From a virus, in IMG/VR virus record IMGVR_UViG_3300044729_002012, positions 1 through 40,898 of that record: 40,898 nt of DNA. The stretch is one strand, 5' to 3'. The notes under the pieces were generated by a model. The model was not told the DNA's origin. It saw only the letters and a list, made by a program, of their open reading frames with translations, and did no database searches. A program made the translations under genes and the position numbers. This document shows positions 10,785 to 30,701 of the stretch, one piece after another. Within the stretch, counting starts at the first letter, position 1; every line of letters begins with the position of its first letter.

Positions 10785-10979
10785 ATGAGTACGGTTCCTG
10801 TTAAGCAACTGGTTCTTAAAGGCTGGGAGGCTGCTTCAAACGGCCTCCCCCGCCTCTTGATCAAAGCCTATACCCGTGAAGAGGCCCGGTCTGAATACCG
10901 TAGCCGGGTTGGGTTACATGCCAGCAGGCCGGTTGATCTCAAGGAGATTACTGATGCCAACGGTAGTTCAAAACCTTGA
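10785..10979 (+). CDS. Small hypothetical protein after the capsid gene
   Basis: This 64-aa protein starts at the ATG two bases after the capsid stop, giving MSTVPVKQLVLKGWEAAS; an upstream in-frame start would lie inside the capsid gene and is unlikely. It has no recognisable motif; it is mixed basic and polar. It has only a weak ribosome site and is probably translated by coupling to the capsid gene. Its end overlaps the next gene by 26 bases. Confidence 0.55.
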   Translation: MSTVPVKQLVLKGWEAASNGLPRLLIKAYTREEARSEYRSRVGLHASRPVDLKEITDANGSSKP

Positions 10980-11175
10980 TGCGGCGATCCTGAACATATC
11001 AGGTCTGATTGCTCAAATCACGGTTGAGCCAAAGCCTAGTTACAATGTGGACGGTCAGTTGGTATCATGGGCTGAGTACCTTGATACCCTGACCACCAAG
11101 CTGGCCACTTTACAAAAAACACGCCAGATGGCTGGTGGACCGTACCAACGGGCAAGCCGATTTAGGAGTGTTTGA
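10954..11175 (+). CDS. Small hypothetical protein in the connector region
   Basis: The start at 10954 is fixed by AAGGAG seven bases upstream; earlier in-frame starts have none. The 73-aa product begins MPTVVQNLDAAILNISGLIA, appears helical and ends basic (YQRASRFRSV). I do not recognise a family. Genes in this place usually encode connector or neck subunits, but nothing specific supports that here. Its TGA overlaps the next ATG by one base (TGATG). Confidence 0.6.
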   Translation: MPTVVQNLDAAILNISGLIAQITVEPKPSYNVDGQLVSWAEYLDTLTTKLATLQKTRQMAGGPYQRASRFRSV

Positions 11176-11498
11176 TGTACAGTGTGGCAATCATAATTAG
11201 TGACGATGAAACCCACACTCTTATCCCTGCTGTTCCAGGCAAAAAGATTAGGGTGGTGAATTATTGCATAGTGGCCGCAGGTAGTTCCAACACATTTCAA
11301 TTCTTTAGCAATTTAACCCCTTTGACTGGTGTTATGCACATGGTCAAAGGTGTTCCTGTAGTTGCCTGTGCTGGTCAACTATTCCCTTCTGGAGCGTTAA
11401 TGCTGTTCCAAGGGGCGGTAGGTGAAAGCATAAAGCTGACAACCACTGAAAATAATAGCGTTGTTGGTGGCCATTTAACTTATATTTTGGCGGATTAA
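11175..11498 (+). CDS. Beta-rich virion protein, paralogue A (KIRV...GHLTY)
   Basis: This 107-aa protein is the first of three related genes (also 11973 and 12316). The shared pattern is KKIRVVNY near 23-30, a loop ending in TG, L-x-P-x-G before LF, GESIKL and VVGGHLTYILAD at the end. This small beta-rich family is frequent in environmental phages and I know no proved function; head or tail surface is plausible. The ATG at 11175 has AGGAG six bases upstream and overlaps the previous stop; a TTG one codon earlier is less likely. Confidence 0.65.
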   Translation: MYSVAIIISDDETHTLIPAVPGKKIRVVNYCIVAAGSSNTFQFFSNLTPLTGVMHMVKGVPVVACAGQLFPSGALMLFQGAVGESIKLTTTENNSVVGGHLTYILAD

Positions 11499-11499
11499 C

Positions 11500-11973
11500 A
11501 TGCCAAGAACAGCAATAATTGAAATCAAATATAAGTCTAAATCCATGCTTCCATGCCCTGAAAAGATGGTTGGCATGAGTGAAGAAGAAGCAGAAATGAG
11601 ATCTGCACAGATTCTTCTGGAAATTGGAAGGAATCTTCGACAAGCACATAAACAAAACTTATCGACAAAATATCCTCCTGCCTCTAGGCCGGGAGAATAT
11701 CCACGCAGAAGATCAGGGTCATTGCAGCGTGGCATTTATTGTGACCCTGAATCAGGTCAGCGAATTGCTAACTCACGCAGAAAAACCATTACAATTGGTT
11801 ATGGGATAAAGGATCGTAAAGGAAATAAAACACCTCATCTTTACGGGCCACATCTTGTAAACAATATGGCAAGAAAAGGCATATTTAACACGTTTCGTTC
11901 CAAACGCACTATGATATTGGCACCGGCAAGGCGTTGGAAACCAGTTGTAATGACTGTATTAAGAGGTGGATGA
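11500..11973 (+). CDS. HK97 gp10-like head-tail joining protein
   Basis: This 157-aa protein carries the hallmark of the phage tail-completion/HK97 gp10 family: YPPASRPGEYPRRRSGSLQRGI (about 57-78), where the substrate-like PPxSxPGExPxxxxGxLxxSI segment is conserved, followed by YGxxL (about 114-121). The family forms part of the head-tail connector. The rest is basic with strands. It is placed between two copies of the KIRV...GHLTY family, an unusual insertion, and shares a TGATG junction with the next gene. Confidence 0.75.
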   Translation: MPRTAIIEIKYKSKSMLPCPEKMVGMSEEEAEMRSAQILLEIGRNLRQAHKQNLSTKYPPASRPGEYPRRRSGSLQRGIYCDPESGQRIANSRRKTITIGYGIKDRKGNKTPHLYGPHLVNNMARKGIFNTFRSKRTMILAPARRWKPVVMTVLRGG

Positions 11974-12648: not shown

Positions 12649-12960
12649 ATGGCAGATATTCCAGCAACGGTGCCGATAACAGTACCAGCTATACCGGAGC
12701 AAACATTCCCTCTATGGGTTGTCGAATCGTTGGTTTTCAATGGTAACGGAATCGAACAGCCGCTGACAGCCGAGGCATGGTTTCGATCAGCACGCCGTGA
12801 CGCAACAAGCCCTACCGGCTGGATTCTTGGAGATCAGCGGCGCAACTATCATATTGCGAATGTTTGGGCGCTTGCTGGTACTGATTCTGATGTAGCGTCA
12901 ACCATGACGGATATTATCGCAACGCTTACCAGATTAGCTACAAACGCCGGTGTATTATGA
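12649..12960 (+). CDS. Hypothetical virion-region protein
   Basis: This 103-aa protein has the strongest ribosome site in the window, AAGGAGGTGA at 12636-12645, just before the ATG. The N-terminus is Pro/Thr-rich (ATVPITVPAIPEQTFPLW), followed by a central mixed region and a helical end (VASTMTDIIATLTRLATNAG). I recognise no family. The ribosome site implies high expression, consistent with a structural or assembly protein. It overlaps the following 43-aa gene by ATGA. Confidence 0.6.
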   Translation: MADIPATVPITVPAIPEQTFPLWVVESLVFNGNGIEQPLTAEAWFRSARRDATSPTGWILGDQRRNYHIANVWALAGTDSDVASTMTDIIATLTRLATNAGVL

Positions 12961-13088
12961 GTCTACCATTGTTGGGAGCCGGGCCTTCAGCGCCAGCATC
13001 ATCAGGCCCAACCGATGGCCTGCTCTGGCAGGGTGCGACTGACTTTTTGATATTTGACGGCTCGACAGATTACATTATCTGGCAGTGA
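12957..13088 (+). CDS. Tiny conserved-looking protein (43 aa)
   Basis: Beginning at the ATG that overlaps the previous stop (ATGA), 43 codons read MSLPLLGAGPSAPASSGPTD, then GLLWQGATDFLIFDGSTDYIIWQ, ending with TGA at 13086-13088. The gap it fills would otherwise be the only unexplained gap between 12649 and 14357. Composition is Gly/Ser/Pro followed by aromatic strands. I remember similar tiny MSLPLLGAGPS proteins next to phage fibre genes, without known function. It may be a fibre attachment or assembly peptide. Confidence 0.6.
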   Translation: MSLPLLGAGPSAPASSGPTDGLLWQGATDFLIFDGSTDYIIWQ

Positions 13089-13100
13089 CGGAGTAGGTAA

Positions 13101-14357
13101 ATGGCAAGCAAACGGATTGATGAACTCACTACACGCACCGTAGCAGATACAGACCTGCTACCCGTCACGCCATCAGGTGGTCCTAGTGGTTCGGCCACAG
13201 TTGCAGCTATTGTCGCTGAAGGGCTGAGCCAGCCGAATAGCGCATCGTCTGGGGCCGGGGCAAGCATCACGATTAAAGCGGCTGACGGGGTTACAAGCGG
13301 AGCTGGCGGTAGCATCACGATTACACCAGGAGCGCAGGCTACCACTGGCGGGCCCGGCAAGGTTGTGATTGATACGCTGACGGTGGGACGTGGTAAAACT
13401 GGATTAACTGAAAATACTGCCGTAGGGTATAACGCATTAGCTGCTGTTACTAGTGGTGATCAGAATGTGACCGTGGGCTACAATGCGGGCAAAGCAATAA
13501 CTACAGGCACTCTGAACGTAGGTGTCGGGTCATCGGCTTTTCAATCAGCAACCACTGGATCTAGCAATACAGCAGTAGGATTTGCTTCCCTAGGTAACAT
13601 GACTACTGGCACCGTAAATTCTTGTTTCGGAAGAGGTTCTGGCGGTTCATTAAATAGTAGTGGAAACACCTTTATAGGTGCTTTTTCAGGAAGCAGTACC
13701 AGCTCAGGAGGGGATAATACAGCAATCGGTTATAATGCTGCCGTATCAAACACAACCGGAAGCAACCTAGTTGCCATCGGCCATACTGCTGCTCAGTATC
13801 ACGCCAATGGTAGTACCTCTTTAACCACAGCAGCAAACAGTATTTATATTGGGTATCAAGTTCGTGGGTTTAACAACTCCGATTCCAACAGTATTGTGAT
13901 TGGTTATCAAGCCATTGGCGAGGGCGCAAATACAGTCGTCATCGGCAACTCGTCCACGGTGCAGCAGCATTTTTACGCGACTCGATACATCAAAACTGAA
14001 GGGTCGCTGGTGTTCGCATCATCGACACCGACAGCAATTGTAGCAAATCAAAATGACTATGTCCTCACCGGCTCCGCATTCCAACGATTAAACTGCACCA
14101 CTGCATCAGACATCACTGGCATCGCTCCACCGACTAGCGGGGCGCATGTCGATGGGCGCATGATCAGGCTCGTGAGTGTGGGCACGGCAACGGTTAGGCT
14201 CATGCACAATGACACCGGCAGCACGGCAGCTAACAGAATGTTCCACCATAATTCTACTAATGTAAGCCTGACCGTGAACGAGTGGGCAGATCTGGTTTAC
14301 GATTCGACGGATAATGGATCAGGTGCTGCTGGGTGGCGTATTGTGCATTATGCTTAA
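13101..14357 (+). CDS. Trimeric fibre protein with NTAVGYNA-type repeats
   Basis: This 418-aa protein begins MASKRIDELTTRTVADTDLL, typical of the attachment end of phage fibres. From about residue 100 to 290 it has repeated hydrophobic turns of the form NTAVGYNAL, NVTVGYNAG, NVGVGSSAF, NTAVGFASL, NTFIGAFSG, NTAIGYNAA, SIYIGYQV, SIVIGYQAI and NTVVIGNS, the left-handed trimeric helix pattern seen in YadA-like adhesin heads and many phage fibres. The C-terminal 120 residues are a separate beta domain. The ribosome site is GGAGTAGG. It lies among connector genes rather than after the tape measure, so it may be a head or collar fibre. Confidence 0.75.
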   Translation: MASKRIDELTTRTVADTDLLPVTPSGGPSGSATVAAIVAEGLSQPNSASSGAGASITIKAADGVTSGAGGSITITPGAQATTGGPGKVVIDTLTVGRGKTGLTENTAVGYNALAAVTSGDQNVTVGYNAGKAITTGTLNVGVGSSAFQSATTGSSNTAVGFASLGNMTTGTVNSCFGRGSGGSLNSSGNTFIGAFSGSSTSSGGDNTAIGYNAAVSNTTGSNLVAIGHTAAQYHANGSTSLTTAANSIYIGYQVRGFNNSDSNSIVIGYQAIGEGANTVVIGNSSTVQQHFYATRYIKTEGSLVFASSTPTAIVANQNDYVLTGSAFQRLNCTTASDITGIAPPTSGAHVDGRMIRLVSVGTATVRLMHNDTGSTAANRMFHHNSTNVSLTVNEWADLVYDSTDNGSGAAGWRIVHYA

Positions 14358-15229: not shown

Positions 15230-15606
15230 TGGCTATCACGCACACAGTTGCTTACAACTTTTCAAAAGACGGTTCCGCTCTGACGAGCTTTACGTCTTCT
15301 GAGAGCCAAGATGGCGAAATCAATCTTGATGTGACCATCGCCGCAGGCGCATCTGCTTTCTCGGTGCTTTGCCCAATTACGCAAACTGCCGTAAAGAGCA
15401 TCTTTATTAACTGCGATGCCGACATGACTGTTGTCACCAAGAACGGTGCCACAACGGTTAACACGTTCACATTCGTGGGAAATAAGCCGTTGATTTGGCA
15501 GGTTGGGTTCCCAACCACAATTCCATTCAGCGGAGATTTCACCACGCTTGCGGTGTCTTCTTCTACTGGTGGCAACCTGAAGGTTTGCATTCTTGAGAAC
15601 GTATAA
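15229..15606 (+). CDS. Beta-rich virion protein common in phages
   Basis: This 125-aa protein starts MAITHTVAYNFSKDGSALTS and has AVKSIFINCDADMTVVTKNG, FVGNKPLIWQVG and TTLAVSSSTGGNLKV. I recognise this as a widespread small phage protein in which a central segment (K-S-I-x-I-x-x-D...) precedes a KPLxW motif; no function is established. Strands predominate and there is no signal or membrane segment. Its stop overlaps the next start (TAATG), so it is co-translated with the following module protein. Confidence 0.6.
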   Translation: MAITHTVAYNFSKDGSALTSFTSSESQDGEINLDVTIAAGASAFSVLCPITQTAVKSIFINCDADMTVVTKNGATTVNTFTFVGNKPLIWQVGFPTTIPFSGDFTTLAVSSSTGGNLKVCILENV

Positions 15607-16070
15607 TGCCTGTTGATTCGTCATCAATTTTGTCCACTATTTCCTGGCAGCATTATCGCCAGAATAGTGGATTTTTGAATACGAATCAGGGTCCAGATTC
15701 ACTTTCAGCGTCTGTGGAATCAGAGACTGCTGAAGACATTTATGCCGAGTCGAAGATACTTGGGCTGTCTTCGACTAGGAGTTATGACCTTACCGCATTA
15801 ACAGATCTGCTGCTTCAGCCACTGGTATTCACGAATGTGCTGGCACTCATGGTCACTGTGTCCTCTGGATCGGTGACGTTGACTCCTGGTGGGTCGAATC
15901 CTGCCACATTGTTCATGGGTGGTACATCACCTGGGATTGTGATCCCAGAGGATGGGGTAGTGATCTGTTCGACGAATACTGTCGTCGATTCGACACATAA
16001 GAATTTGACGGTAGCCACTGGGGCATCGTCAGGAGCAACTTACCAAATTGCAATTCTAGGGGGTGCTTGA
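15606..16070 (+). CDS. Small virion protein sharing a domain with the LamG adhesin
   Basis: This 154-aa protein matches the C-terminal 130 residues of the 703-aa protein at 25760. Shared landmarks are STRSYDLTALTDLL against SSYTYDLRSLTDFL, VTVSSGSVTLTPGGSNP against VVMTSGSATISPGASNP and ATYQIAILGGA against CVYKIAILGGR. The two therefore carry one module, used once alone and once at the end of an adhesin. The fold is likely beta; the role could be attachment to the particle. The gene overlaps its neighbours on the left by TAATG. Confidence 0.65.
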   Translation: MPVDSSSILSTISWQHYRQNSGFLNTNQGPDSLSASVESETAEDIYAESKILGLSSTRSYDLTALTDLLLQPLVFTNVLALMVTVSSGSVTLTPGGSNPATLFMGGTSPGIVIPEDGVVICSTNTVVDSTHKNLTVATGASSGATYQIAILGGA

Positions 16071-17358: not shown

Positions 17359-17639
17359 AAGAGCCGAATTGGCCACAGATCGTTGCTGGACTGGTAGACG
17401 AACCTTACTGTCTGTCCATGGAGCAGGTTGCTAGCCTTACCATGCGACAGATAGCATTGATTTACTACCGTGAAAGAGATAAAAAGGGAGTGCCGAAGCC
17501 AATCCGAAGCGGTCGAAATAACAAGAAGAAGAGTCAAGAAAAGGTCCGAGAAGAGTTCTTTGCCATGGCCGCTGCCTTTGGATTGTCGGAATCAGAAATA
17601 GAACGGCAATGGGAGGAGTCCAAAAATGGCAAAGAATAG
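16912..17639 (+). CDS. Tail assembly chaperone GT, -1 frameshift fusion
   Basis: Reading 16912-17337 and then, after slipping back one base, 17337-17636 plus the stop gives about 242 aa. The T part runs through CCG-AAT-TGG-CCA without stop into a frame with MEQVASLTMRQIALIYYRERD and EIERQWEESKNGKE. That frame has a possible ATG at 17418 but no ribosome site, so it is expected to be made mainly by frameshift. The T part is helical and basic in the middle (RSGRNNKKKSQEK). It overlaps the tape measure start at 17626. Confidence 0.75.
17331..17337 (+). promoter_or_regulatory. -1 ribosomal frameshift slippery site A AAA AAG
   Basis: The zero-frame codons GAA AAA AAG give the heptamer A AAA AAG, the same as in E. 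coli dnaX. A small GCCG...CGGC hairpin follows at once, within a GC-rich downstream stretch. The -1 frame is open for 100 codons. The bases and frame are directly seen; frequency of shifting is not known. Confidence 0.8.
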
Positions 17640-19989
17640 ACCGAGAGTGGAAGACGAACCTGGCAATCCAGATGGATGCGTGATTGGCAAGAAAGAAGCC
17701 AAGACGCTTACGGCATCTGTTGAACTCCTATCCGATGCATTTCTGTCTGGCGCTCAAAGTATTCGCACAAGTCTGACGTTACTTTCAGATACCATTTCTG
17801 AAATGGCATTGAAAATAAGAAAAGTTTCAGAAGGGTTTAATCGAACAAAAAAAACAATAAATGCTAAAAAAGAAAAAGGTGAAACAGCACAAGAGAGTGG
17901 TATAAAAGCAAATATTGCAAATAGAGCAAATGCAAACCAAGCTAAAGAGAAACCAGGATTTGTAATAAGGACTTTCAGAAGTCTTTTTGGATTTTCTCAA
18001 AAGGGTCAACATCCTGGTAGTATTTACACGCATGATATTCATTGCGAAAAAATTCTAATTCAAATTGCTGCGCTTTTGACTCAGGCCGAGAAAACATCTA
18101 AGCCAAAAGGGTCAAAGTCAAAGTCAAAGTCTGAAGGAAAGAAAAAGAAGACTGACCTTGATCTTCAGATTGATGAATTGCGATCTAAGTTTCCAATTCT
18201 AACAAAACTATTTATTGACGGACCTGCAAAGCTTAAAGAAGAGTTCAAGTATTGGTCTGGCGTAATGGCTACGGGTTGGGGTTTGGCTTCAAGTGCAACA
18301 AAATTTGGTGCAAAACAGTTAAATAAAGGCTGGAACATTGCTTCTGAATCAATAAAATATGGCGCAAGCGCAACAAAAAAAGCCTTTGAATTCGTCATGC
18401 CTGGCGAAGATTTTGAAGACATTGCATCATTGATTGAAGATGTTGTCAATCAAGAACCAACTAAACCACAAAAAGATCCTCAAGAATTCAAAGGGTCAAC
18501 AGAAAAATTTGAAAAAGCAGATTTGACACAAATAGAAGAATCTTTTAAAGAACTAAATAAATTAAAATTTTCGTCAGAATCTTTTGATGATATTGCTTCT
18601 GATGTAGCAGCAAAGTTTTTAAAAATATCAAGTTCATTTGATCCCACTCCTGAACAAATAGAGGCATTGAAACAAGAAAGTATTAAGAATCAAGAAAACT
18701 TAAATAAAGAATTGGATGATTTTGTTTCATCAATTATTAAAGACGCTTACGACATTGCTTCGCCAGAAGTCCGAAAAGAATCCAGTAAAAAACGAAGCAA
18801 TTTATATCTTGCATCTGGCGGTCCTACTACACCATCAAAAGATGATGCCAAAGGCACCGACACTGTTCCCGCCATGCTCACTCCAGGTGAATTCGTCGTC
18901 AATAAAGACGCAACGAAGAAGAACCGAGGGGTCTTGGAGCAGATCAATAATGGCGGCAAGACGCAGAAGAAGGCATCTGGTGGGCCGATAAATTATTTGT
19001 CAGCCGGTGGTATGGGAGGAGGAGGAGGAGGAGGAGGAGGAGGTGGAGGAGGTGGAGGAGGTGGTGGAGGTGGTCCAGCCCCTGCTGTTTCACCATTCAT
19101 AGCTGGCCTCACATTAGCTGGAAAGTCGTTAGGTGTACTCAGTACTGTTGGAAATCTAGCTGTTGGTGCTATCACAGGAACGGTTGGTGCCTTTAACCAA
19201 ATAGTTTCATTTGCAAGCCCATTTGTACAAGCGTTTAATCCTGCTCTTATTGAGCAGATGAACCTTGTGTTCAAGGATCTTACCGCAGTAATCGGCATGG
19301 CTCTTGAGCCTGTGATCGGTGCGGTGATTCCAATTGTAAGGGCGTTTGCAGACAGGCTCGTACCAGTAGTTCAGGCATTGATTCCAACCGTTCAATTGTT
19401 TGCTGATGCGATGATGGAATTGGCCGGTCCAATTATCGAAATTCTCATTGAGGCGTTTGCTGCACTTGAGCCAATTATCGTGATGGTTGTTGGCATAGTA
19501 AAGATGTGGGCAGACATATTAGTTGAGTCTTTACCACTAATATCAGCGGTAATCAAAGAAGTTGTTTGGTGGTTTATGAAAATAGTTTCAACCATGCAAT
19601 GGGCTATTGGAAGACTTATTTCAATGATTCCTGGCACAGGAAACATTGGTAAAAATATGATGGATAGTGCCGACAAGGCAGATAGAGCGTCACAAGAATA
19701 TTACAAGGGTGTGTCAAAGGTTCAGAAGGCTATTCAACAACCAGCTAAAAAAGGTGCCTCGGTTGGTGCCGCTGCCGGGAAAGCTAGTTTCAGTGGCATA
19801 TCCGACCTCGGACGCAATTTAATGCAATCAGCAATGTCATCATCTACTCAGGCATCTGCTGTCAGAACTGCTGAGAATACTGAGAAAATGGATAAAACTT
19901 TGCAAGAGATTAACATGAAAATGGGTCGTGCGCCTGCTGATCCAGCAAGAGGCGCTCTTGGTCTTAGGGCACCTGGGGTAGTAAGATAA
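17626..19989 (+). CDS. Tail tape measure protein
   Basis: This 787-aa protein sets tail length and spans the tube lumen. The N-terminal 270 residues are helical and charged, encoded in unusually AT-rich DNA. Near 405-445 is the tape-measure-associated GTDTVPAMLTPGEFVVNKDAT segment. A run of 20 glycines (19015-19074) is followed by a long hydrophobic stretch (about 490-670) with membrane-active helices such as VIGMALEPVIGAVIPIV and IIVMVVGIVKMW, as found in tape measures. GGAGGAG lies about seven bases before the ATG. It overlaps the T frame by 14 bases and the next gene by TAATG. Confidence 0.88.
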   Translation: MAKNRPRVEDEPGNPDGCVIGKKEAKTLTASVELLSDAFLSGAQSIRTSLTLLSDTISEMALKIRKVSEGFNRTKKTINAKKEKGETAQESGIKANIANRANANQAKEKPGFVIRTFRSLFGFSQKGQHPGSIYTHDIHCEKILIQIAALLTQAEKTSKPKGSKSKSKSEGKKKKTDLDLQIDELRSKFPILTKLFIDGPAKLKEEFKYWSGVMATGWGLASSATKFGAKQLNKGWNIASESIKYGASATKKAFEFVMPGEDFEDIASLIEDVVNQEPTKPQKDPQEFKGSTEKFEKADLTQIEESFKELNKLKFSSESFDDIASDVAAKFLKISSSFDPTPEQIEALKQESIKNQENLNKELDDFVSSIIKDAYDIASPEVRKESSKKRSNLYLASGGPTTPSKDDAKGTDTVPAMLTPGEFVVNKDATKKNRGVLEQINNGGKTQKKASGGPINYLSAGGMGGGGGGGGGGGGGGGGGGGGPAPAVSPFIAGLTLAGKSLGVLSTVGNLAVGAITGTVGAFNQIVSFASPFVQAFNPALIEQMNLVFKDLTAVIGMALEPVIGAVIPIVRAFADRLVPVVQALIPTVQLFADAMMELAGPIIEILIEAFAALEPIIVMVVGIVKMWADILVESLPLISAVIKEVVWWFMKIVSTMQWAIGRLISMIPGTGNIGKNMMDSADKADRASQEYYKGVSKVQKAIQQPAKKGASVGAAAGKASFSGISDLGRNLMQSAMSSSTQASAVRTAENTEKMDKTLQEINMKMGRAPADPARGALGLRAPGVVR
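19015..19074 (+). repeat. In-frame GGN microsatellite coding 20 glycines
   Basis: Twenty glycine codons in a row: nine GGA, then a mixture of GGT and GGA. The block lies inside the tape measure, between the helical N-part and the hydrophobic part. Being a triplet repeat it can change length without breaking the frame, which could alter linker length. Confidence 0.95.
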
Positions 19990-21484: not shown

Positions 21485-21931
21485 ATGCCAACGATAGTAC
21501 CATTCACCTGCTACAATTCCAGCCAGTCAGGCGAAACCGCTTTACCAAGGCCTTATCCATGTTGTGGGTGGAAAGTCCCGCCTGCGTCATTTTCAGGCAC
21601 CTACCGTTGTATTTCCGCACCAATGATGTGTGGATCGTACCCGACAGTAGCAACGCCCTTTACCTTGGCAATAGGTGACTACTGCGGTTCCATTCACACT
21701 TATTCCAGCCTATCTTTGCCATTTTACATAGTACTTCAGACAAGCTTGTGTACCGAGCCAACAGGTGCTGTTCCACCTGGAAGTATTTCAATTGGTCTTG
21801 GACCAATGCCAACCATTACATCGCCTGCTACATGTTCTGTTGTTGCTGGTGTCTACAACTTTAACTTGGTTGGCACAGTACAATATGGATCAGCCACTAT
21901 TGAAGTTATTGTCAATCAGGTGACTCCATGA
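21485..21931 (+). CDS. Cys-rich tail-tip region protein
   Basis: This 148-aa protein has eight cysteines, including PCCGW near 26-29, RCIS, MCG, YCG, LCT and TCS, with much Ser/Thr/Pro and no long helix. Extracellular-type disulfide-bonded or metal-binding structure is possible. The start has a modest ribosome site (GGGTGA). A shorter frame overlapping its left half (21478-21678) is a shadow. It belongs to a run of unusually Cys-rich proteins in the tail tip. No function is inferred. Confidence 0.55.
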   Translation: MPTIVPFTCYNSSQSGETALPRPYPCCGWKVPPASFSGTYRCISAPMMCGSYPTVATPFTLAIGDYCGSIHTYSSLSLPFYIVLQTSLCTEPTGAVPPGSISIGLGPMPTITSPATCSVVAGVYNFNLVGTVQYGSATIEVIVNQVTP

Positions 21932-23010
21932 ACGAATTTGTTGCCGAGCAATTATCGGGGAGTTGCATATCCTCGGTGGTTGCCGGTCAAGCGTTCCCAA
22001 GCATTTCATTGCACATCCTTTACTACACAACTGAAACAACAGCGCCGGTCACGAACCAAACTGGTTTGTGTGACAATAAGATGATTCTGAAACATGACGC
22101 TGCTGGTAAAAATGCTGTGCTTTACGGGTCAAACGACCACTCTCCAGAAGGATTTGACTTCCCAATATCAGGAATAAAATTTGATTTGCTTGACGTGTCG
22201 AAATGGGATGCGAAGGTCATCACCCCGTACTCAATTCCGGCATACACAGTTTCGTTTGACGGTCCTAGGTTTAGAGAACCAAACACATACATCAGATTGA
22301 CTAAACGAGATCAGATTGCCAATCCTTTTGCCGGTTCGGATGTCGTCTATTGGACTGATGCAAATGACCAGACGTTCGGTCAGGATTGGCTTGGGAATGC
22401 AATTCCAGGTGGGTGGTGCTTTACCAATCGTGGCATACCTGAGCCGATGTTGGGCACTATTTATTTCGAGGATGCCAGGAAGGCCACAGATCCACCTAAC
22501 GAAGTGGATAGAAGCAAAACTTTGATCAATGAAAATTGGACACCATTCTGTGAGGCATTGCCAGTTTATAATTCAAATGGCTCACTGATTGGATCGTTTG
22601 ATGGCCTTGCTTGGATAGCGTTCTTCAACACTGCTGTCGTCAAGAACCCAATGGAACCACCTTTAGATTCAACATATATCGGACCGCTACTACCGATCCC
22701 AAAACTTGATCCAAAGCGTCAAATCCTGAATCTTGAAATCTGGATTTACCTGACAAAAAACTCTTCAGATCCATCAATGAAATCTCCGAAAATTGCATCG
22801 CTGCGCTATTGGACATATACAAGGGATTATGGCACTGGCAATTTTCCATTCGATCCATATTTGTTTTTTGGTGCTGGTGCTGCTGTTGGTGGCGGCGTGA
22901 CGATACCAATAAACTTCAATCTTTTGCAGAATGCTAATAATCCAGAATCGTTGCAAACGCATCAAGCGTCTATCTCTCTTTCAAACTTGAAATTTTTCAT
23001 TGGTGCATGA
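21928..23010 (+). CDS. Tail-tip region protein, unknown
   Basis: This 360-aa protein starts by ATGA overlap and has AGGTGA upstream. It is rich in Pro, Asp, Asn and aromatics (for example NPFAGSDVVYWTDANDQTFGQ near 131-151) and looks like mixed beta. A hydrophobic Gly/Ala stretch near 313-325 (FFGAGAAVGGGVTI) could be a fusion or interior segment. No motif is recognised. It is probably a baseplate/tail-tip structural protein by position. Confidence 0.5.
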   Translation: MNEFVAEQLSGSCISSVVAGQAFPSISLHILYYTTETTAPVTNQTGLCDNKMILKHDAAGKNAVLYGSNDHSPEGFDFPISGIKFDLLDVSKWDAKVITPYSIPAYTVSFDGPRFREPNTYIRLTKRDQIANPFAGSDVVYWTDANDQTFGQDWLGNAIPGGWCFTNRGIPEPMLGTIYFEDARKATDPPNEVDRSKTLINENWTPFCEALPVYNSNGSLIGSFDGLAWIAFFNTAVVKNPMEPPLDSTYIGPLLPIPKLDPKRQILNLEIWIYLTKNSSDPSMKSPKIASLRYWTYTRDYGTGNFPFDPYLFFGAGAAVGGGVTIPINFNLLQNANNPESLQTHQASISLSNLKFFIGA

Positions 23011-24536
23011 TGCCAGAATTCACAGTCGAAGTCATTCCAGCAGAGGCGACAGCGCATGGTACGCATGTGGTTGCTGTTGCAAAGTACATCTGTGCGCCAC
23101 CAACAATTGGTTATAGTGTCCCAGTAACATTTGACTGTGCTTTGGCTTGCACGGCCATTGGGTGGCCAATGCAAATGGGCATATTGACAATAGATTTTTA
23201 CACCGACGATCCAACATGCCCTTCTGCCGGTGTGAGTCGTTCCAAGTATTTTCCACAAGTGGTGACAATGGGATTGGGGTGTAGGCCTGGCAATCCATCA
23301 CCAGAGGGGATTTGGCAAGGCGAATACTTCTCAGCCGTCACACTAATCCCTGGGCCTCCTGCGTATGGCATGTCGTTTAGAATTCGAGCGGTCATGACAG
23401 TGAACGTGGATGCAAGCGTATCTGTTCTCATCACGATTGACAGGCTTGTGCCGAATTCGGAATTTGTACCACCACCAGCAAACGGTTCAAACGTCTATGT
23501 GGAGTGCGGCAACTTCTCCACCACCTTGACAAGGCTAATTGATCCAAGCGCAGATCCATTAGCAAGGAATGTTTCGTGGGTGATGACAAACCCAAATCAA
23601 GTCCCATTCAATACAGGTGGTGGGTATTGTGAAACAGACATAAAATCAGCAAATGCGACCGTAGTTTTGATGCCATATAGACTTGGTTGTGACGGCAGAG
23701 CAAATGCTGGTGCGCTATCTAATTGTGCGATGGATACAGGGTATAGGACTTACTCTTGCATGGCAGTTTTGGTCAAACCGTCCACGGCGGGAGCATTTAG
23801 GCCACAATGGTCACAAATGGGAGTCAATACTGGCAACGATAGACGTTGTTTTGAAGGCAATAACGCTGGACCAAGCGCAACTCCATTCCCGATTCCAGCA
23901 CAATTAAATCCACCACCAATATACCCAGATCTTATGGAGCTTCTGAATTGTGGCTGTCCAAATGAGAACGCTGTTATTTCTGATAAACAGCAAATACAGT
24001 TTACTCGCTGTGCTGATTTTGATGTCGTATTGAAGTCTGTAAACAAAAGTGTACCATGCCTCGCAGTTCGGCCAAGTGGCAATGGTAATCCTTGGCAAAT
24101 AGGCACCTATGTAATTGATGCTACAATCCAAGCACAGACTGGACATTGGGTCGCAACGTGTTCCTTCCCAACGATGCCTGGGGCACCTAAGGTTGTAATT
24201 TATGGTCTAGAGTTTCCTACAGGGATTCTGGCAGAATGTGTGCCAATACCATCACTGGGAGAACAAGTGTTTTCTATGCCACCAATAGTGCCACCATCTG
24301 CAAAAGAATTGATGGCAAAAATAAACAAAGTTAAAGAGCTTCCTTGCATTCACCTTGGGATGCAACTTGAGACAGTTCCGTCCTGTGGTTGTTCAGGTGG
24401 CAACCTTTACGAGTGCGCCAAACATGGCAAATGTCGTGTACAAGGAAACACTATCGAGATGAACTGCTGGCGTTGCCCAGACTATATTGACCGAACTGAA
24501 AATAACGGTATGATTGATGTAAACAATGGGGGATAG
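23007..24536 (+). CDS. Cys-rich tail-tip protein with C-terminal Cys/His module
   Basis: This 509-aa protein has about 24 cysteines. The body is beta-like; the last 60 residues contain LPCIHLGMQLETV, SCGCSG, ECAKHGKCR and NCWRCPDY, a compact Cys/His unit of the C-x2-LG ... C-x-C ... C-x2-HG-x-C ... C-x2-CPDY type. I know this unit from planctomycete proteins, so it hints at host origin or host-adapted function; metal binding is likely. The ATG at 23007 overlaps the previous stop (ATGA); the next ATG at 23010 is an alternative. Confidence 0.55.
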   Translation: MMPEFTVEVIPAEATAHGTHVVAVAKYICAPPTIGYSVPVTFDCALACTAIGWPMQMGILTIDFYTDDPTCPSAGVSRSKYFPQVVTMGLGCRPGNPSPEGIWQGEYFSAVTLIPGPPAYGMSFRIRAVMTVNVDASVSVLITIDRLVPNSEFVPPPANGSNVYVECGNFSTTLTRLIDPSADPLARNVSWVMTNPNQVPFNTGGGYCETDIKSANATVVLMPYRLGCDGRANAGALSNCAMDTGYRTYSCMAVLVKPSTAGAFRPQWSQMGVNTGNDRRCFEGNNAGPSATPFPIPAQLNPPPIYPDLMELLNCGCPNENAVISDKQQIQFTRCADFDVVLKSVNKSVPCLAVRPSGNGNPWQIGTYVIDATIQAQTGHWVATCSFPTMPGAPKVVIYGLEFPTGILAECVPIPSLGEQVFSMPPIVPPSAKELMAKINKVKELPCIHLGMQLETVPSCGCSGGNLYECAKHGKCRVQGNTIEMNCWRCPDYIDRTENNGMIDVNNGG

Positions 24537-24538
24537 CC

Positions 24539-24778
24539 ATGGATATATTCGAGTTCATGAAGACCCATGGCTTACCTTGGGCAGGCATGGCAATTGCAGC
24601 CTACGCTTTCTGGGTACAAGTGGTTATCCCAGGACGTGATCGGCACTTCCAATTTCTCGATAAGATTGAATCAGCCATGGTAGAGATGGCAAAAACGCAA
24701 ACGGCTATAATGAGAGAAGTTGCTGAACTTGTTCAACGTGTAGAAGGAGATGGCAAGAATGGCAAGTCTAATTTATAA
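24539..24778 (+). CDS. Holin-like membrane protein with coiled coil
   Basis: This 79-aa protein has one transmembrane helix near residues 14-30 (WAGMAIAAYAFWVQVVI) followed by a long charged helix (FQFLDKIESAMVEMAKTQTA, with heptad-like spacing) and a basic tail. The outline fits a class III-type or XhlA-like holin or a membrane anchor for lysis control, but no holin is proved. The ribosome site is GGGGGAT just before ATG. The peptidase gene of the window lies 4 kb away, so lysis functions are not fully clustered. Confidence 0.5.
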   Translation: MDIFEFMKTHGLPWAGMAIAAYAFWVQVVIPGRDRHFQFLDKIESAMVEMAKTQTAIMREVAELVQRVEGDGKNGKSNL

Positions 24779-25175
24779 CTCGGCAATTTTTGACGCATCA
24801 ACAGGTGCAATCGACTTTGACACAGACACATTTAAGATGATGCTTGTGACAAGTTCGTACACTGCTGCAAAGACGCATACAAAGCGCAACGCGGTAACGA
24901 ATGAAGTCAGTGGTACTGGTTATACTGCTGGTGGCAATGCTGCTGCTGCGACTGTAACCAAGGATGACACAAATAGCCGTGTGGACATCACATTTGCAAT
25001 CACCTCTTGGACTAGCTCAACGATTACTGCGAGAGCGGGTGTGATTTATAAGAGCCGAGGTGGCGCATCGTCGGCCGATGAACTTGTTGGCTATGTCGAT
25101 TTCGGTTCTGACATTTCCAGCACCTCTGGAACATTCTCGGTGACAATCACAAGTCCTCTCAGGTTCCAAAACTAA
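24759..25175 (+). CDS. Conserved phage structural protein (SADELxxYVDFG family)
   Basis: The 138-aa protein starts at 24759, with AAGGAG ten bases upstream; the ATG at 24750 would leave only one base. It begins MASLIYNSAIFDASTGAIDF and has DTDTFKMMLVTSSYTAAKTH, RNAVTNEVSGTGYTAGG, DITFAITSWTSSTITARAGV, YKSRGGASSADELVGYVDFG and SPLRFQN at the end. This whole pattern is common in phage genomes, where it is annotated only as a hypothetical or tail-region protein. Function unknown. Confidence 0.65.
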   Translation: MASLIYNSAIFDASTGAIDFDTDTFKMMLVTSSYTAAKTHTKRNAVTNEVSGTGYTAGGNAAAATVTKDDTNSRVDITFAITSWTSSTITARAGVIYKSRGGASSADELVGYVDFGSDISSTSGTFSVTITSPLRFQN

Positions 25176-25756
25176 TGTCTACCTGTGTAATAGTAGCTGG
25201 GACGTATCGATCTGGTACGTCATTGTTGTCACGGTTTCTACACGAATCCGGCGTTGACATGAATCCAGTGCCATCAAGCAAAGATCTGCCAGGCTGGCAC
25301 CCAACTGGAAGCTACAAAGATAAGATTCTTGACGTAGAAGGGTTTGCTGGGTGGGAAGCATATTTTTCGGCCCGGCCTATGCCAGACGTATGGGGCATCA
25401 AGAGTCACAGACTTCTATTCACGCCTGGCATGATAGAATCATTCATTCAAGCATGTCCAGCTAATCGTAAAGTATTAGTGTGGACCAGCCGAGATATTGA
25501 AACCGCAGTGGCATCATATTCGTTTTTGCGACACGATCTTTCTATTGAAGAAGCACGGGAAATAATCGTCAGCCAAGTGGCTAGCTTGGATAGCCTGTTT
25601 CAGGCTTGGCCCGAAGCCGATAGGATGCGGGTGGCGTTTCCCGAAACGACAATTGACCCAGCGGGACAATTGCAAGCGGTTACAGATTTAATCGGCTTGC
25701 CATTTAATGAGCAGGCCTTGGCCCATATTCGAGCCGATATACCGAAGTGGGGCTAA
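25175..25756 (+). CDS. Sulfotransferase-like protein (PAPS-binding family)
   Basis: This 193-aa protein has the nucleotide-sulfate-binding P-loop GTYRSGTSLLSRFL (9-22) and a downstream VLVWTSRDIETAVASYSFLR segment (about 99-118) matching the 3'-phosphate-binding motif of sulfotransferases (RxxxxxxxSxxxF-like, RD...S). It is shorter than the usual 250-300 aa, so it is a compact member. The predicted reaction is transfer of sulfate from PAPS to a sugar, lipid or other group. It lies between a virion protein and the adhesin gene, starts by TAATG overlap and may decorate the particle, a host receptor or a lipid; that is inference. Confidence 0.7.
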   Translation: MSTCVIVAGTYRSGTSLLSRFLHESGVDMNPVPSSKDLPGWHPTGSYKDKILDVEGFAGWEAYFSARPMPDVWGIKSHRLLFTPGMIESFIQACPANRKVLVWTSRDIETAVASYSFLRHDLSIEEAREIIVSQVASLDSLFQAWPEADRMRVAFPETTIDPAGQLQAVTDLIGLPFNEQALAHIRADIPKWG

Positions 25757-25759
25757 TAC

Positions 25760-27871
25760 ATGGCATTAATTCATTATTACAAATTCAATAACAATCTTTA
25801 TGATTCTGTTGGCGCATTTGATTTGATGACCAATATAGGTACTCCGTCTTACACTACTGGAAAACTTGGTGGTTCTACTGGTGCCGTTAGAGCATCGGTG
25901 TCTTTGTTTTCATGCACTGGAAGCGGGGCGGCTGCTTCTGGATTTATGGCGGCAGACACAACAGAAGCAGCTAGCGGCGTGTTGTCGTGGTCAATGACAG
26001 GGTGGATATATTTAACAGGAAATGCCACCAGTTTGATTCAACTCCTTACTGGCACGGCAGGACAATCAACGGCAAGCCTTTACTATGATGATAAAGTGGG
26101 ATCACTTGTATTTAATGCGTCTTCGGCAGCGTGTTCAACTTCAACTTGGGTGTTCTTTACAGTTCGAGTAACAAGCGGTGCCAGTTATCTAAGCGTGAAC
26201 GGTGGCGCTGAGTCCATGACCACATGGACCACTAACATGATGGCTATGGGAAAGTCATTATTTAACGGAATACGAGTAGGTTCTTTGTCAGGGTCTAGTC
26301 CTTTATCTGCCTATATTGACGATGTGCGGATATTCAATCATTCGCTTTCATCTGGAGAAATTGCGGGAATATATAATTCGGGATCTCCAGCCGAGGCAAG
26401 TAGTACTGCTTTGAAATGGGATCAGCCAATACATCATTATAAATTCACAGACAACCTAAATGACAGCATAGGTTCTGATAATGCTACAGCATTCGGAGTA
26501 ATTTCTTATCCAACAGGGCTGTTTGCAAATAGTCCAAAATGCGTTTTAATTGATAATTACGAAAACATAGACTGTATTGGCGCATCAACATGGTCATCTA
26601 ATAGTTGGACTGCTTCATTTTGGTCAGAATTGCCAGGTTCTTTTTCTTCAACGCCTCTTTTTTCATTGTCTGATTCAACTGGCGTTAATTATTTAAGATA
26701 CAATCATGACCCAAAAGCTCCATATTGGAGTTTAAGCGGCACGACAATGTTTCAAGACTCTTATGCAAGTACAACTGTTATGAGGTTTTTATCTTATAAT
26801 CACATAGCTCAAAGATACACTTTGCATTTTGCTGGTGTTACTGGCGTTACATCACAATACTCTGGTTCAGGATTTTCACTTGCAAGGTTTCAATCAGGCT
26901 CGCTTGGTGCCGTCAGCGTAAATATAAAATTAGACGATCTAAGGATATATAACAGTTTGCTGTCTGGGTTTGATAAAGATCAAATATTTAATGGTGGGAG
27001 TGGGACAGAATACAGCATAGTCAGTTCTGGTGGTTCTGCTTCAGGTTTATTAGCAACAATCACAATGTCCGGTCCTGCTGGATCGGCAACTGGATCTAGT
27101 GGTGGTGCCGGATCTGCATCTGGGGCGTTATCTACGGTCACGATGTCTGGGCCTGCTGGATCTGCGTCTTCAGGTTCACCAGCTTCTGCTTCTGGATCAT
27201 TAGCAACAATTAATGTTTCATCTTTTTCTGGAATTGGTGGTGTTGGTGTTACTGGCAGTGGTTCTCTTTCTACAATTACTGTGTCATCATTCGCCGGGAT
27301 AGGATTCCCAGAGTTCATCGGTACAGGTCCACTTGGGACTGTTTCTGTCACAGCAATTGAAGCAGTTGCTTCGATTTCAACATCAATCCAATTATCTTAT
27401 TGTGCGTGTGATGCGGAAATTGGATGGAAGCAATCGTTGCCGATTACAGGGTTTGTTAGTGCAGTCCAGGGTGAGGATGCGATCTCGGCAAGGATTACAC
27501 CTGTAGTCTCAGGAATAGACGCAAACATTGTTTTCTTCGAGCAGCGAACTTTAACTGCATCTTCTTCGTACACTTATGACCTTCGTTCTCTCACCGACTT
27601 CCTTGGACAGTCATTCTCATTGTCCAGAGCGTATGCAATCAGCGTGGTCATGACCTCTGGAAGTGCGACCATTTCCCCAGGTGCGTCGAACCCACTCAAG
27701 TGGTTTTTCAATTCAAATACAGCCAACGTCACAATCACATCTGGCAACTCATTTATGTTTGCTCAGAAGGGATCTGCTATAGTAAGTAATAGTGCAAAGA
27801 CAATTCTGGTGACAAATCCATCAGCGTTGTCCGCATGTGTGTACAAGATTGCGATTCTCGGAGGACGATGA
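25760..27871 (+). CDS. Modular LamG-type adhesin/tail protein
   Basis: This 703-aa protein has two concanavalin/LamG-like domains in tandem: residues 1-215 (starting MALIHYYKFNNNLYDSVGAF) and 222-410 (HHYKFTDNLNDSIG). Each ends in a YIDDVRIFN- or LDDLRIYN-type strand. A Ser/Gly linker (425-540) has five units of about 24 residues with SASGxLxTITxSGPAG-like cores. The C-terminal domain (570-703) matches the protein at 15606. Likely a sugar-binding receptor adhesin. The LamG call rests on repeats and the DDVRIFN motif. Confidence 0.7.
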   Translation: MALIHYYKFNNNLYDSVGAFDLMTNIGTPSYTTGKLGGSTGAVRASVSLFSCTGSGAAASGFMAADTTEAASGVLSWSMTGWIYLTGNATSLIQLLTGTAGQSTASLYYDDKVGSLVFNASSAACSTSTWVFFTVRVTSGASYLSVNGGAESMTTWTTNMMAMGKSLFNGIRVGSLSGSSPLSAYIDDVRIFNHSLSSGEIAGIYNSGSPAEASSTALKWDQPIHHYKFTDNLNDSIGSDNATAFGVISYPTGLFANSPKCVLIDNYENIDCIGASTWSSNSWTASFWSELPGSFSSTPLFSLSDSTGVNYLRYNHDPKAPYWSLSGTTMFQDSYASTTVMRFLSYNHIAQRYTLHFAGVTGVTSQYSGSGFSLARFQSGSLGAVSVNIKLDDLRIYNSLLSGFDKDQIFNGGSGTEYSIVSSGGSASGLLATITMSGPAGSATGSSGGAGSASGALSTVTMSGPAGSASSGSPASASGSLATINVSSFSGIGGVGVTGSGSLSTITVSSFAGIGFPEFIGTGPLGTVSVTAIEAVASISTSIQLSYCACDAEIGWKQSLPITGFVSAVQGEDAISARITPVVSGIDANIVFFEQRTLTASSSYTYDLRSLTDFLGQSFSLSRAYAISVVMTSGSATISPGASNPLKWFFNSNTANVTITSGNSFMFAQKGSAIVSNSAKTILVTNPSALSACVYKIAILGGR

Positions 27872-28518
27872 TGAACATGATTCTGATGCTGATTCTGGGC
27901 CAATCGCTTGAATTCCCACCAGAGTTTAAAGGCGAACCGGGTCAATTCATTGCGGTTAAGCCGACAAAAATGGAAGGGAAAACAGTTCAATACTACGCTA
28001 TGGACCCAGGTTTGAATGTATTCCCCGCGTCGCTGCTATCCGATCCGACAGCAACAGTGGTGACATCTGTTACTCCAGGCACCTATCGACTCCTTGCATG
28101 GACAGCCTTGGGCGACAAACCAAGCCCCGCATCCCTGATCCGAGTAAACATTCAAGCACTTCCCCTCCCCAATCCACCGAAACCAAATGACTCGCTCCGA
28201 GATGACATAGAGTCTATCTGGGGTTCGATGCTGGAATCGGATAAGGAGGCCACCAGATCGGCCATGGTGAGCGTTTACAAGCGATGCGCCCAGACAGCCA
28301 ACCGACAATTAAAAACGATTGGTGACCTATTTGAGGTGCTTGCAGGGGAAACGTCTGGTCTTCCCAAAGATCGACTGATGCCAATCAGAAAGCGCATCGC
28401 ATCAGAAGTAGAAAAGATTGCTGGTAATGATGAGAATGCAGTCTATTCAGAAGGCCAACGAATGGCTTTGGTGTCGATGTTTACCCATGCTGCATCCATA
28501 TTGGAGACATTGAAATGA
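27871..28518 (+). CDS. Short-leader protein beside the peptidase
   Basis: The 215-aa protein starts at 27871, six bases after GGAGG; longer frames to 27835 are less likely. Its N-terminus (MNMILMLILGQSLEFPPEFK) is a short hydrophobic leader without a lipobox, so a secreted or periplasm-facing protein is possible. An Ig-like/beta part (FIAVKP...VTPGTYRLLAWTALGDKPS) is followed by a Pro-rich linker and a helical C-terminal half (SIWGSMLESDKEATRSAMVS and after). I recall similar proteins next to papain-like peptidases in planctomycete phages. Its stop overlaps the peptidase start. Confidence 0.5.
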   Translation: MNMILMLILGQSLEFPPEFKGEPGQFIAVKPTKMEGKTVQYYAMDPGLNVFPASLLSDPTATVVTSVTPGTYRLLAWTALGDKPSPASLIRVNIQALPLPNPPKPNDSLRDDIESIWGSMLESDKEATRSAMVSVYKRCAQTANRQLKTIGDLFEVLAGETSGLPKDRLMPIRKRIASEVEKIAGNDENAVYSEGQRMALVSMFTHAASILETLK

Positions 28519-29840: not shown

Positions 29841-30701
29841 ATGGAATGGCATATCAAACGTACTGACCCACATGCCCATCACCTGTCTCTCCCGATTTCT
29901 CACGCTAACCCAACACGCAAGCTTCTGTTGATTTCAGATTTACACTGGGACTCAATGCAGTGTGATCGAGAATTGCTAAAGCGGGATCTTGACAAGGCTG
30001 TCCAAGATGATGCACTGATCTTTATCTTTGGCGACTTATTCGACGCGATGCAGGGTAAATGGGACAAGAGAGCCTCGGTCGAATCCTTCCGGCCAGAACA
30101 CAGGACAGGCCAATATTTGGATAGCTTGGTTGATACCGCTGCCGAATGGTTCCTGCCATACAAGGACAACCTTGCCCTGATTTCACCTGGCAATCACGAA
30201 ACGTCTATTCAGAAGCACCACGAAACTAATCTCACCGAGCGTTTAGTTGCGATCCTGCGGCATGAGAAGTCCAGGGTTGAACTAGGCACTTACTGGGGTT
30301 ATGTGATGTGCGTCATGAATATGGACGTAGATCGCAAGAAAACCGCTGCCTCGGTCATCCATTACCATCACGGTTATGGTGGTGGTGGAGAGGTCACCAG
30401 GGGTGGTATCGATCACTCCCGCACCAGAGGACAGTATGACGCAGACGTGTTTGTCTCAGGTCATATTCATCGCAGGAATATGGACGAGAACATTATCACT
30501 CGGTTGACCAAGAATGGGAATGTGCGACAGCAGCGACAACTATTCCTACGTTGCTCTGCTTACAAAAATGAAATTGGCGGATGGCACGCAGAAAAGGGAC
30601 GAGCGGCTCGTCCCCTTGGCGGTTGGTGGTTAACGCTTACTGGCGAGCGTTATGGCGACAAAGACATATTCGGCATCACTCTGAATGCAACGGTAACGTG
30701 A
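29841..30701 (+). CDS. Calcineurin-like metallophosphoesterase
   Basis: This 286-aa protein shows the dimetal phosphoesterase motifs: ISDLHWD (D33, H35), FGDLFD (G64-D68), GNHE (117-120), a HYHHG histidine near 176 and SGHIHRR near 213-217. These bind two metal ions and hydrolyse phosphodiester or phosphomonoester bonds. Related phage enzymes act on nucleic-acid ends, nucleotides or host envelope; the substrate is not visible. It is in the late operon after the peptidase. GGGAGAGAC precedes the ATG. Its 3' end overlaps the convergent leftward gene by 26 bases. Confidence 0.88.
   Translation: MEWHIKRTDPHAHHLSLPISHANPTRKLLLISDLHWDSMQCDRELLKRDLDKAVQDDALIFIFGDLFDAMQGKWDKRASVESFRPEHRTGQYLDSLVDTAAEWFLPYKDNLALISPGNHETSIQKHHETNLTERLVAILRHEKSRVELGTYWGYVMCVMNMDVDRKKTAASVIHYHHGYGGGGEVTRGGIDHSRTRGQYDADVFVSGHIHRRNMDENIITRLTKNGNVRQQRQLFLRCSAYKNEIGGWHAEKGRAARPLGGWWLTLTGERYGDKDIFGITLNATVT

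Follow-up and report, generated by a model that had tools for sequence, protein, structure and literature searches.

A small phage sulfotransferase is exchanged together with the heads of a LamG adhesin and may edit the receptor of that adhesin

The DNA analysed here, referred to as the window, is a stretch of 40,898 nucleotides from the IMG/VR virus record IMGVR_UViG_3300044729_002012. It contains a three-gene cassette on the plus strand, consisting of a PHROG 644 protein (24759-25175), a small sulfotransferase of 193 aa with an ATG start (25175-25756) and an adhesin with LamG domains (25760-27871). The cassette is bordered, on the same strand, by the gene of a small membrane-type protein on the left (24539-24778) and by gp27835 on the right (27835-28518). 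The start codon of the enzyme overlaps the stop codon of the upstream gene by one base (TAATG), and the adhesin gene begins 3 nt past the stop codon of the enzyme. Residues 9-22 of the sulfotransferase, GTYRSGTSLLSRFL, comprise the 5'-phosphosulfate-binding loop GTYRSGTS (residues 9-16, 25199-25222), assigned by its conservation in the family, while residues 106-117, RDIETAVASYSF, include a putative 3'-phosphate-binding pair, R106 and S114 (R-x7-S, 25490-25516), likewise indicated by conservation. Between these lies WGIKSH (residues 73-78, 25391-25408), in which K76 and H78 are candidate catalytic or PAPS-contacting residues. The motifs of residues 9-22 and 106-117, the compact form of the protein and the overlap had been pointed out in the original prediction and are all confirmed, although the 1-nt overlap is found in only four of the nine full-length members of the family (window, L001, L002 and L006), the gene being separated from its upstream neighbour by a 1-nt gap in four others (L003, L004, L005 and L033) and by 18 nt in L072. 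No signal peptide or membrane segment is obvious by eye, and the protein is therefore probably cytosolic.

In Pfam, the window protein matches Sulfotransfer_3 (PF13469) in two stretches with 31.6 bits (curated cut-off 27), whereas the match to the cytosolic SULT-type family Sulfotransfer_1 (PF00685) is confined to residues 5-31 and, with 13.3 bits, falls below the cut-off of 22. Nine further IMG/VR records carry the enzyme, eight of them complete (59-94% identity) and one as a fragment at a contig end, which makes ten enzyme-bearing records including the window and nine full-length proteins for comparison. Seven of the full-length relatives (80-94% identity) were obtained by IMG/VR scans, and the eighth (L072, 59%) by a search with the upstream gene. 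Of 21 stretches picked out when viral contigs were scanned with a DNA pattern, 12 are chance frames and nine belong to the enzyme family; the latter include the fragment (L053/L127), which the scan explained as an enzyme gene cut off by the contig end. No match was obtained by tblastn of the window protein against 50,697 phage records, and a scan of the genome collection with the enzyme found no relative; likewise, no PHROG family, no NCBIfam family above noise and no sequence relative in the PDB was found. The dN/dS values of the enzyme ranged from 0.06 to 0.26 in all pairs with an estimable dS, demonstrating that it is under purifying selection. Together with the Pfam match above cut-off and the nine further records, these low values show that the open reading frame at 25175-25756 is more than a chance ORF.

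Within the phosphosulfate loop, G9, T10, Y11, R12, G14, T15 and S16 are invariant in all nine full-length members, and residue 13 is S in three and A in six of them; the [RK]-x-G-T-[ST] loop is thus present throughout with R12, G14, T15 and S16 unchanged. W73, G74, K76 and H78 are also invariant, as are R106 and S114. Two invariant residues, H78 (in KSH) and D49, are candidates for the catalytic base, H78 aligning with a proline in cellular relatives. All nine members match Sulfotransfer_3 at E <= 1, and in a six-frame search five of the seven matching relatives scored above the cut-off, with G018 and G020 below. A protein of only 193 aa with a Sulfotransfer_1 score under the cut-off could be a degenerate, inactive sulfotransferase domain that is retained as a binding module, but the named cofactor-contact residues are all invariant down to 59% identity and dN/dS is low, and we consider loss of activity very unlikely.

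An AlphaFold2 model of the enzyme (seven sequences; mean pLDDT 78, pTM 0.79) has a strand at residues 98-104 followed by a helix at 108-118, around the R106/S114 pair. When the model was compared with the PDB by Foldseek, ranks 1 to 35 were all sulfotransferases or the PAP-binding retinol dehydratase (best E 4.1e-5). A structural aligner ranked adenylate kinases (3cm0, Z 11.7) amid sulfotransferases, namely the curacin sulfotransferase domain (4gbm, Z 10.8), the tyrosylprotein sulfotransferases 5wri (Z 10.3) and 3ap2 (Z 10.2), and Stf0 (Z 10.0). Since the Z scores are similar for the two groups, the fold alone is not decisive, and the ranking would also suit an enzyme of this core fold that binds nucleotides without being a sulfotransferase, such as a P-loop kinase; such sharing of core folds is to be expected. 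Profile-profile comparison (hhalign), on the other hand, gave a probability of only 0.11% to 20 Gemmataceae adenylate kinase (ADK) sequences and 0.14% to terminase, compared with 95.0% (E 3.8e-8, residues 5-183) to a diverse set of 28 Sulfotransfer_1 sequences from planctomycetes. For four cellular relatives the probability was 97.5% (E 8e-12), but these were picked by the same profile and hence are not independent. Weak matches were obtained to 29 Sulfotransfer_3 sequences of Gemmataceae (26.7%) and to a SULT-like subset of five sequences (11.5%); the R-x7-S spacing was found, by pattern, in all 29 extracted planctomycete Sulfotransfer_3 (PF13469) sequences. At the profile level the enzyme is thus separated from adenylate kinases, which the structural aligner does not achieve. 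As the RSGTS loop moreover lacks the kinase-type GK[ST], and the curated Pfam cut-off is passed by the window protein, we rejected the P-loop kinase and leave a non-sulfotransferase of this fold only a slight residual chance. The sulfotransferase identity put forward in the original prediction is therefore supported by Pfam, fold, residues and profile tests: the predicted model matches sulfotransferase folds, and the key residues, whose loss in relatives had been named as a sign against the assignment, are kept in nine of nine members. We predict with high confidence that the enzyme is an active sulfotransferase.

When 392 Planctomycetota genomes were searched with the family profile, seven matches were obtained at E <= 0.01. 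A shared motif series relates four of these to the enzyme (L105, L108, L109 and L111), and the other three (L106, L107 and L110) were judged to be chance matches. Common to the four cellular relatives are the R, G, T and S of the loop and the R106/S114 pair, and K76 aligns with the K of their KDPR/KEPR. The cellular subfamily of Sulfotransfer_3 with the series HRSGTS / NPKGYFED / KDPR / R-x7-S hence has the same loop, lysine and R-x7-S residues as the phage enzyme, whereas the latter has WHPTGSYKD in place of the NPKGYFED-type stretch and KSH in place of KDP. With respect to Pfam Sulfotransfer_3, L108 is above the cut-off (43.1 bits), L109 (20.6 bits) and L111 (24.6 bits) are below it, and L105 gives no match. 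The cellular domains also differ from the stand-alone phage enzyme in that they reside in frames of at least 532 aa: L108 is a single 831-aa ORF with a Sulfotransfer_3 domain followed by Glycos_transf_2, in the L111 frame (1243 aa) the sulfotransferase part is followed by two glycosyltransferase domains, and L109 has TPR repeats in place of a glycosyltransferase. L111 is neighboured by ABC_tran and ABC2_membrane genes (ABC-2 exporter) and an NTP_transferase gene, which gives its locus the look of a surface-polysaccharide cluster. Given the glycosyltransferase fusions in two of the four relatives, the phage protein can be seen as a pared-down member of a glycan-type subfamily. The original prediction had named an envelope molecule or a virion protein as target; the cellular relatives point to glycans as substrate, and we hold this assignment with moderate confidence. 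A recent capture of the gene from the presumed host lineage (see below) was rejected, as only distant matches were present in Planctomycetota genomes; a profile search of two Gemmataceae genomes found no relative of the enzyme.

The first gene of the cassette encodes a baseplate/fibre-adaptor-like protein (phrog_644, E 2.2e-32). Its model (22 sequences, pLDDT 89.9) was aligned by VIA-align to a baseplate/tail chain of Klebsiella phage KP1 (Z 12.1) and the T4 baseplate chain 5iv5_BJ (Z 11.4), and the next rows were phage parts as well (fibre-tail adaptor 6.6, arm segment 6.4, neck 6.2), while Foldseek with the same model gave no match at E <= 0.001. In Caulobacter phage CcrRogue, a PHROG 644 homologue (62.6%) is found directly before a 'putative lectin-like domain protein'. 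PHROG 644 has no assigned function in PHROGs, and we observed that it precedes adhesin-like genes in many phages, the Caulobacter giants included (L213:6001-6417). The third gene encodes a protein with LamG (concanavalin A-like lectin) domains, built of LamG1 (about 25760-26404), a LamG2-like part (26405-27060), Gly/Ser/Ala-rich repeats and a C-terminal module. Laminin_G_3 (cut-off 27.6 bits) is matched by the whole protein with 32 bits and by LamG1 alone with 36.7 bits, but LamG2, with only 13.5 bits, stays below the cut-off. The PHROG 644 protein is plausibly an adaptor and the LamG protein plausibly the adhesin. The order of the cassette is well kept: PHROG 644 is directly upstream of the enzyme in all ten gene-bearing records, and an adhesin of LamG clade A is directly downstream in the nine records where this could be read, the window included.

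Among related phages the cassette occurs in two genome positions. In the window, G003 and G002 it follows the small gene 24539 (slot 2), whereas in G010, G012, G016, L003-L005 and L072 it is a connector-type gene that lies upstream of PHROG 644 (slot 1). The edges of slot 2 are defined by G001 and G015, where the homologue of gene 24539 runs directly into the gp27835 homologue with no cassette; gp27835 itself is 99% identical in G003 and 26-30% identical elsewhere in the relatives. When the window is compared with the G010 group, protein identity is 80-84% for the enzyme (76-78% at the DNA level) and 81-82% for PHROG 644 (66-69%), as against 61% for the capsid protein (61-62%) and 51-53% for the C1 peptidase (55-56%). 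These values suggest that the enzyme was shared more recently than the backbone, a reading that rests on nucleotide identity since dS has reached saturation in most of the backbone genes.

A natural swap is seen between phages that carry the enzyme (ST+: G010, G012 and G016) and phages that lack it (ST-: G009 and G013). The capsid protein is 98-99.8% identical among G010, G012, G016 and G009, and the DNA flanking the cassette is 86-91% identical on both sides between ST+ and ST- phages. On the left, identity breaks off within a span from 2 nt upstream to 10 nt downstream of the first base of the enzyme gene; on the right it returns at residue 437-477 of the adhesin, shortly behind both LamG heads. 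The swapped segment comprises the enzyme, LamG1 and LamG2 in ST+ phages (about 2 kb) and one other LamG head in ST- phages (about 0.64 kb). From the position of these edges it is evident that the enzyme and the adhesin heads are exchanged as one unit. The precision of this exchange bears on the possibility that the enzyme is general envelope-modifying cargo of an insertion hot spot, which would confer superinfection immunity or convert the serotype independently of the adhesin of the same phage. Such cargo would agree with the differing content of slot 1 between phages, with the metallophosphoesterase held by slot 2 in G005 and with the lack of an enzyme match in 34 of the 43 IMG/VR records with PHROG 644 that were searched whole. 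However, the exchanged block coincides exactly with the enzyme and the adhesin heads, as judged from three ST+ and two ST- records, and LamG clade A comes next in all nine readable cases; we therefore find unrelated cargo rather unlikely.

The association between enzyme and head type was also apparent across records. All five records with the other LamG head are without enzyme, and with the window left out the enzyme is present in 8/8 records with LamG clade A and in 0/6 of the others (Fisher's p 3.3e-4), a comparison of few and related records that the p-value counts as independent, so that it is not taken as proof. LamG heads in general need no enzyme, as L071 has a head 32% identical to that of the window and is without it. 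Moreover, the two heads differ in their relation to the enzyme. In a comparison of the window with G003, its near twin, LamG2 is only 33-35% identical, compared with 74-77% for LamG1, 98% for the adhesin C-terminus and 94% for the enzyme. LamG2 (26405-27060) has thus been replaced between the two phages and represents a hypervariable head in an otherwise similar adhesin, and since the enzyme has stayed the same meanwhile, it goes with LamG1 (or the LamG1 slot) and is not matched to LamG2. The enzyme was originally noted for lying next to the adhesin; this is not only borne out but strengthened by the block exchange, and a functional tie between the two is, in our judgement, likely.

With regard to the host, the terminase (TerL) profile matched a Gemmata MAG contig with 50% and a Gemmataceae MAG contig with 36% identity, contigs that may be viral themselves, and the other seven of nine matches were to Bacillota (27-29%, partial query coverage). 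The host is thus probably a Gemmata-like planctomycete (Gemmataceae). APS kinase was detected in two of two Gemmataceae genomes by a search that was also positive for 11 of the 14 controls. Sulfotransfer_3 was present in 60 of 61 Gemmataceae genomes, and a supply of PAPS in such a host is therefore plausible.

These observations can be combined in a model in which the enzyme, in the infected cell, would take sulfate from host PAPS and transfer it to a glycan, linked to a lipid or bound to the membrane, that is recognised by the LamG heads. The receptor would then be altered, which would keep progeny from sticking to cell debris or to the dying cell itself and would close the cell to phages bearing the same adhesin. 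Three observations favour sulfation of a host glycan: the enzyme is inherited with the heads, its ancestry appears to be of the glycan type, and no tyrosine in an acidic context was found in the heads (see below). We tentatively propose that the enzyme, a probably cytosolic PAPS sulfotransferase of the glycan type that is inherited along with the adhesin, sulfates a host surface glycan and thereby alters the adhesin receptor; receptor editing as such is held with less than even confidence. More speculative still is the idea of a matched pair, in which the adhesin evolves together with a sulfotransferase that edits its receptor: the glycan would be gripped first and later sulfated so that progeny may leave. 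It should be underlined that the enzyme-free head of L071 and the replacement of LamG2 beside a conserved enzyme both weigh against receptor editing, and that the late-operon position, which suggests late action of the enzyme, fits modification of the virion at least equally well. Many phages make exclusion proteins early, according to one source (PMC9586334), and this was also counted against receptor editing from a late operon.

The main rival to receptor editing is that the enzyme sulfates the virion, most simply a tyrosine or an attached sugar of the LamG adhesin, and so tunes binding or protects the particle. Adhesin and enzyme would both be made in the cytosol, the site of PAPS, and the enzyme gene lies between adaptor and adhesin in one closely spaced gene run. 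Sulfation of the adhesin would further account for the exchange of the enzyme together with the heads, for its persistence with LamG1 despite the replacement of LamG2, and for the late position. Tyrosylprotein sulfotransferases, however, prefer tyrosines in an acidic context, and in nine ST+ adhesin heads no tyrosine had at least three acidic residues within 5 positions; this is a weak test, which took the first 230 residues per head (one head being only 71 long) and assumed the substrate. Action of a tyrosylprotein sulfotransferase on the head was rejected on this ground, and these proteins, despite the similar core fold noted above, are 16% or less identical to the enzyme. In addition, a Pfam scan of 20 listed window genes showed no glycosyltransferase by which a sugar might be attached to the virion, and glycosyltransferase fusions are found among the nearest cellular relatives. 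On balance we regard sulfation of the virion as somewhat unlikely.

Host surface glycans are modified by the O-antigen serotype-converting enzymes of phages (glucosyl- and acetyltransferases), which are typically encoded by prophages. The enzyme proposed here would likewise be a phage-borne modifier of a host glycan, but with sulfate instead of a sugar or acetyl donor. A literature search that covered few subscription journals found neither a sulfotransferase of the serotype-converting type nor a report of a phage sulfotransferase paired with a receptor-binding protein or tail fibre. Passages in some of the papers found deal with the annotation of a replication region and with genes of the PAPS reductase type; one of these genes, in phage CSP3, is downstream of the tail fibre genes and encodes a different enzyme. 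When two sulfotransferases of planctomycetes were searched against phages by tblastn, no match was obtained, and thus no independent phage case of such an enzyme beside an adhesin. In one study, Sulfotransfer_3 genes of OM43 phages, and a similar gene in Synechococcus phage S-SRM01, are reported as metabolic genes, and the function of sulfotransferase genes in phage genomes is called unclear (PMC10580990). These genes belong to the same Pfam family and to tailed phages, as here, but in that text they are reported as metabolic, unlike the adhesin-linked enzyme of the window. What is new here is that a sulfotransferase is tied to a specific partner, the adhesin head, by swaps between near-identical phages.

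A phage that disables its own receptor has a precedent in T5, which makes both a receptor-binding protein (pb5) and Llp, a factor that disables the receptor of the phage (PMC9586334). The comparison concerns the way of working only, namely that a phage makes a receptor binder and a receptor-disabling factor; Llp is a lipoprotein that binds FhuA, whereas the proposed factor here would be an enzyme acting on a glycan. If the matched-pair reading is true, the cassette would amount to a phage version of a receptor-binding/receptor-destroying pair, passed between phages in one block, and would give a first concrete role to a phage sulfotransferase. Through the link to the adhesin head, a vague 'metabolic gene' is turned into a testable question, namely whether binding of the adhesin is changed by sulfation. 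Should this be so, phages would control adsorption by sulfation, and the enzyme could then be used for finding receptors of Planctomycetota phages.

Some further features of these genomes were noted. A second module (gene 12649 and spike gene 13101; window 12649-14357) lies after the connector gene in the window and after the C1 peptidase gene in G012 (L035, L036), and since the sulfotransferase cassette of G012 is in the connector slot, the two modules are in exchanged places relative to the window. A homologue of gene 12649, recognised by its opening residues, lies between PHROG 644 and another adhesin at L066:4431-4736, where it takes the place of the sulfotransferase in the cassette. The metallophosphoesterase gene (window 29841-30701; G005 10910-11773) is located in G005 between the small membrane gene and gp27835, that is, in the slot of the sulfotransferase cassette in the window. 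Compared with G003, many of whose proteins are 97-100% identical to those of the window, the tail-tip genes (window 21485-24536) are only 40-52% and the tape measure (17626-19989) 48% identical, as if the tail-gene block had been replaced. Finally, the gene at 15606-16070 resembles the C-terminal part of the adhesin (about residues 553-703, window 27416-27868; 32-38% in relatives), which suggests a common attachment module.
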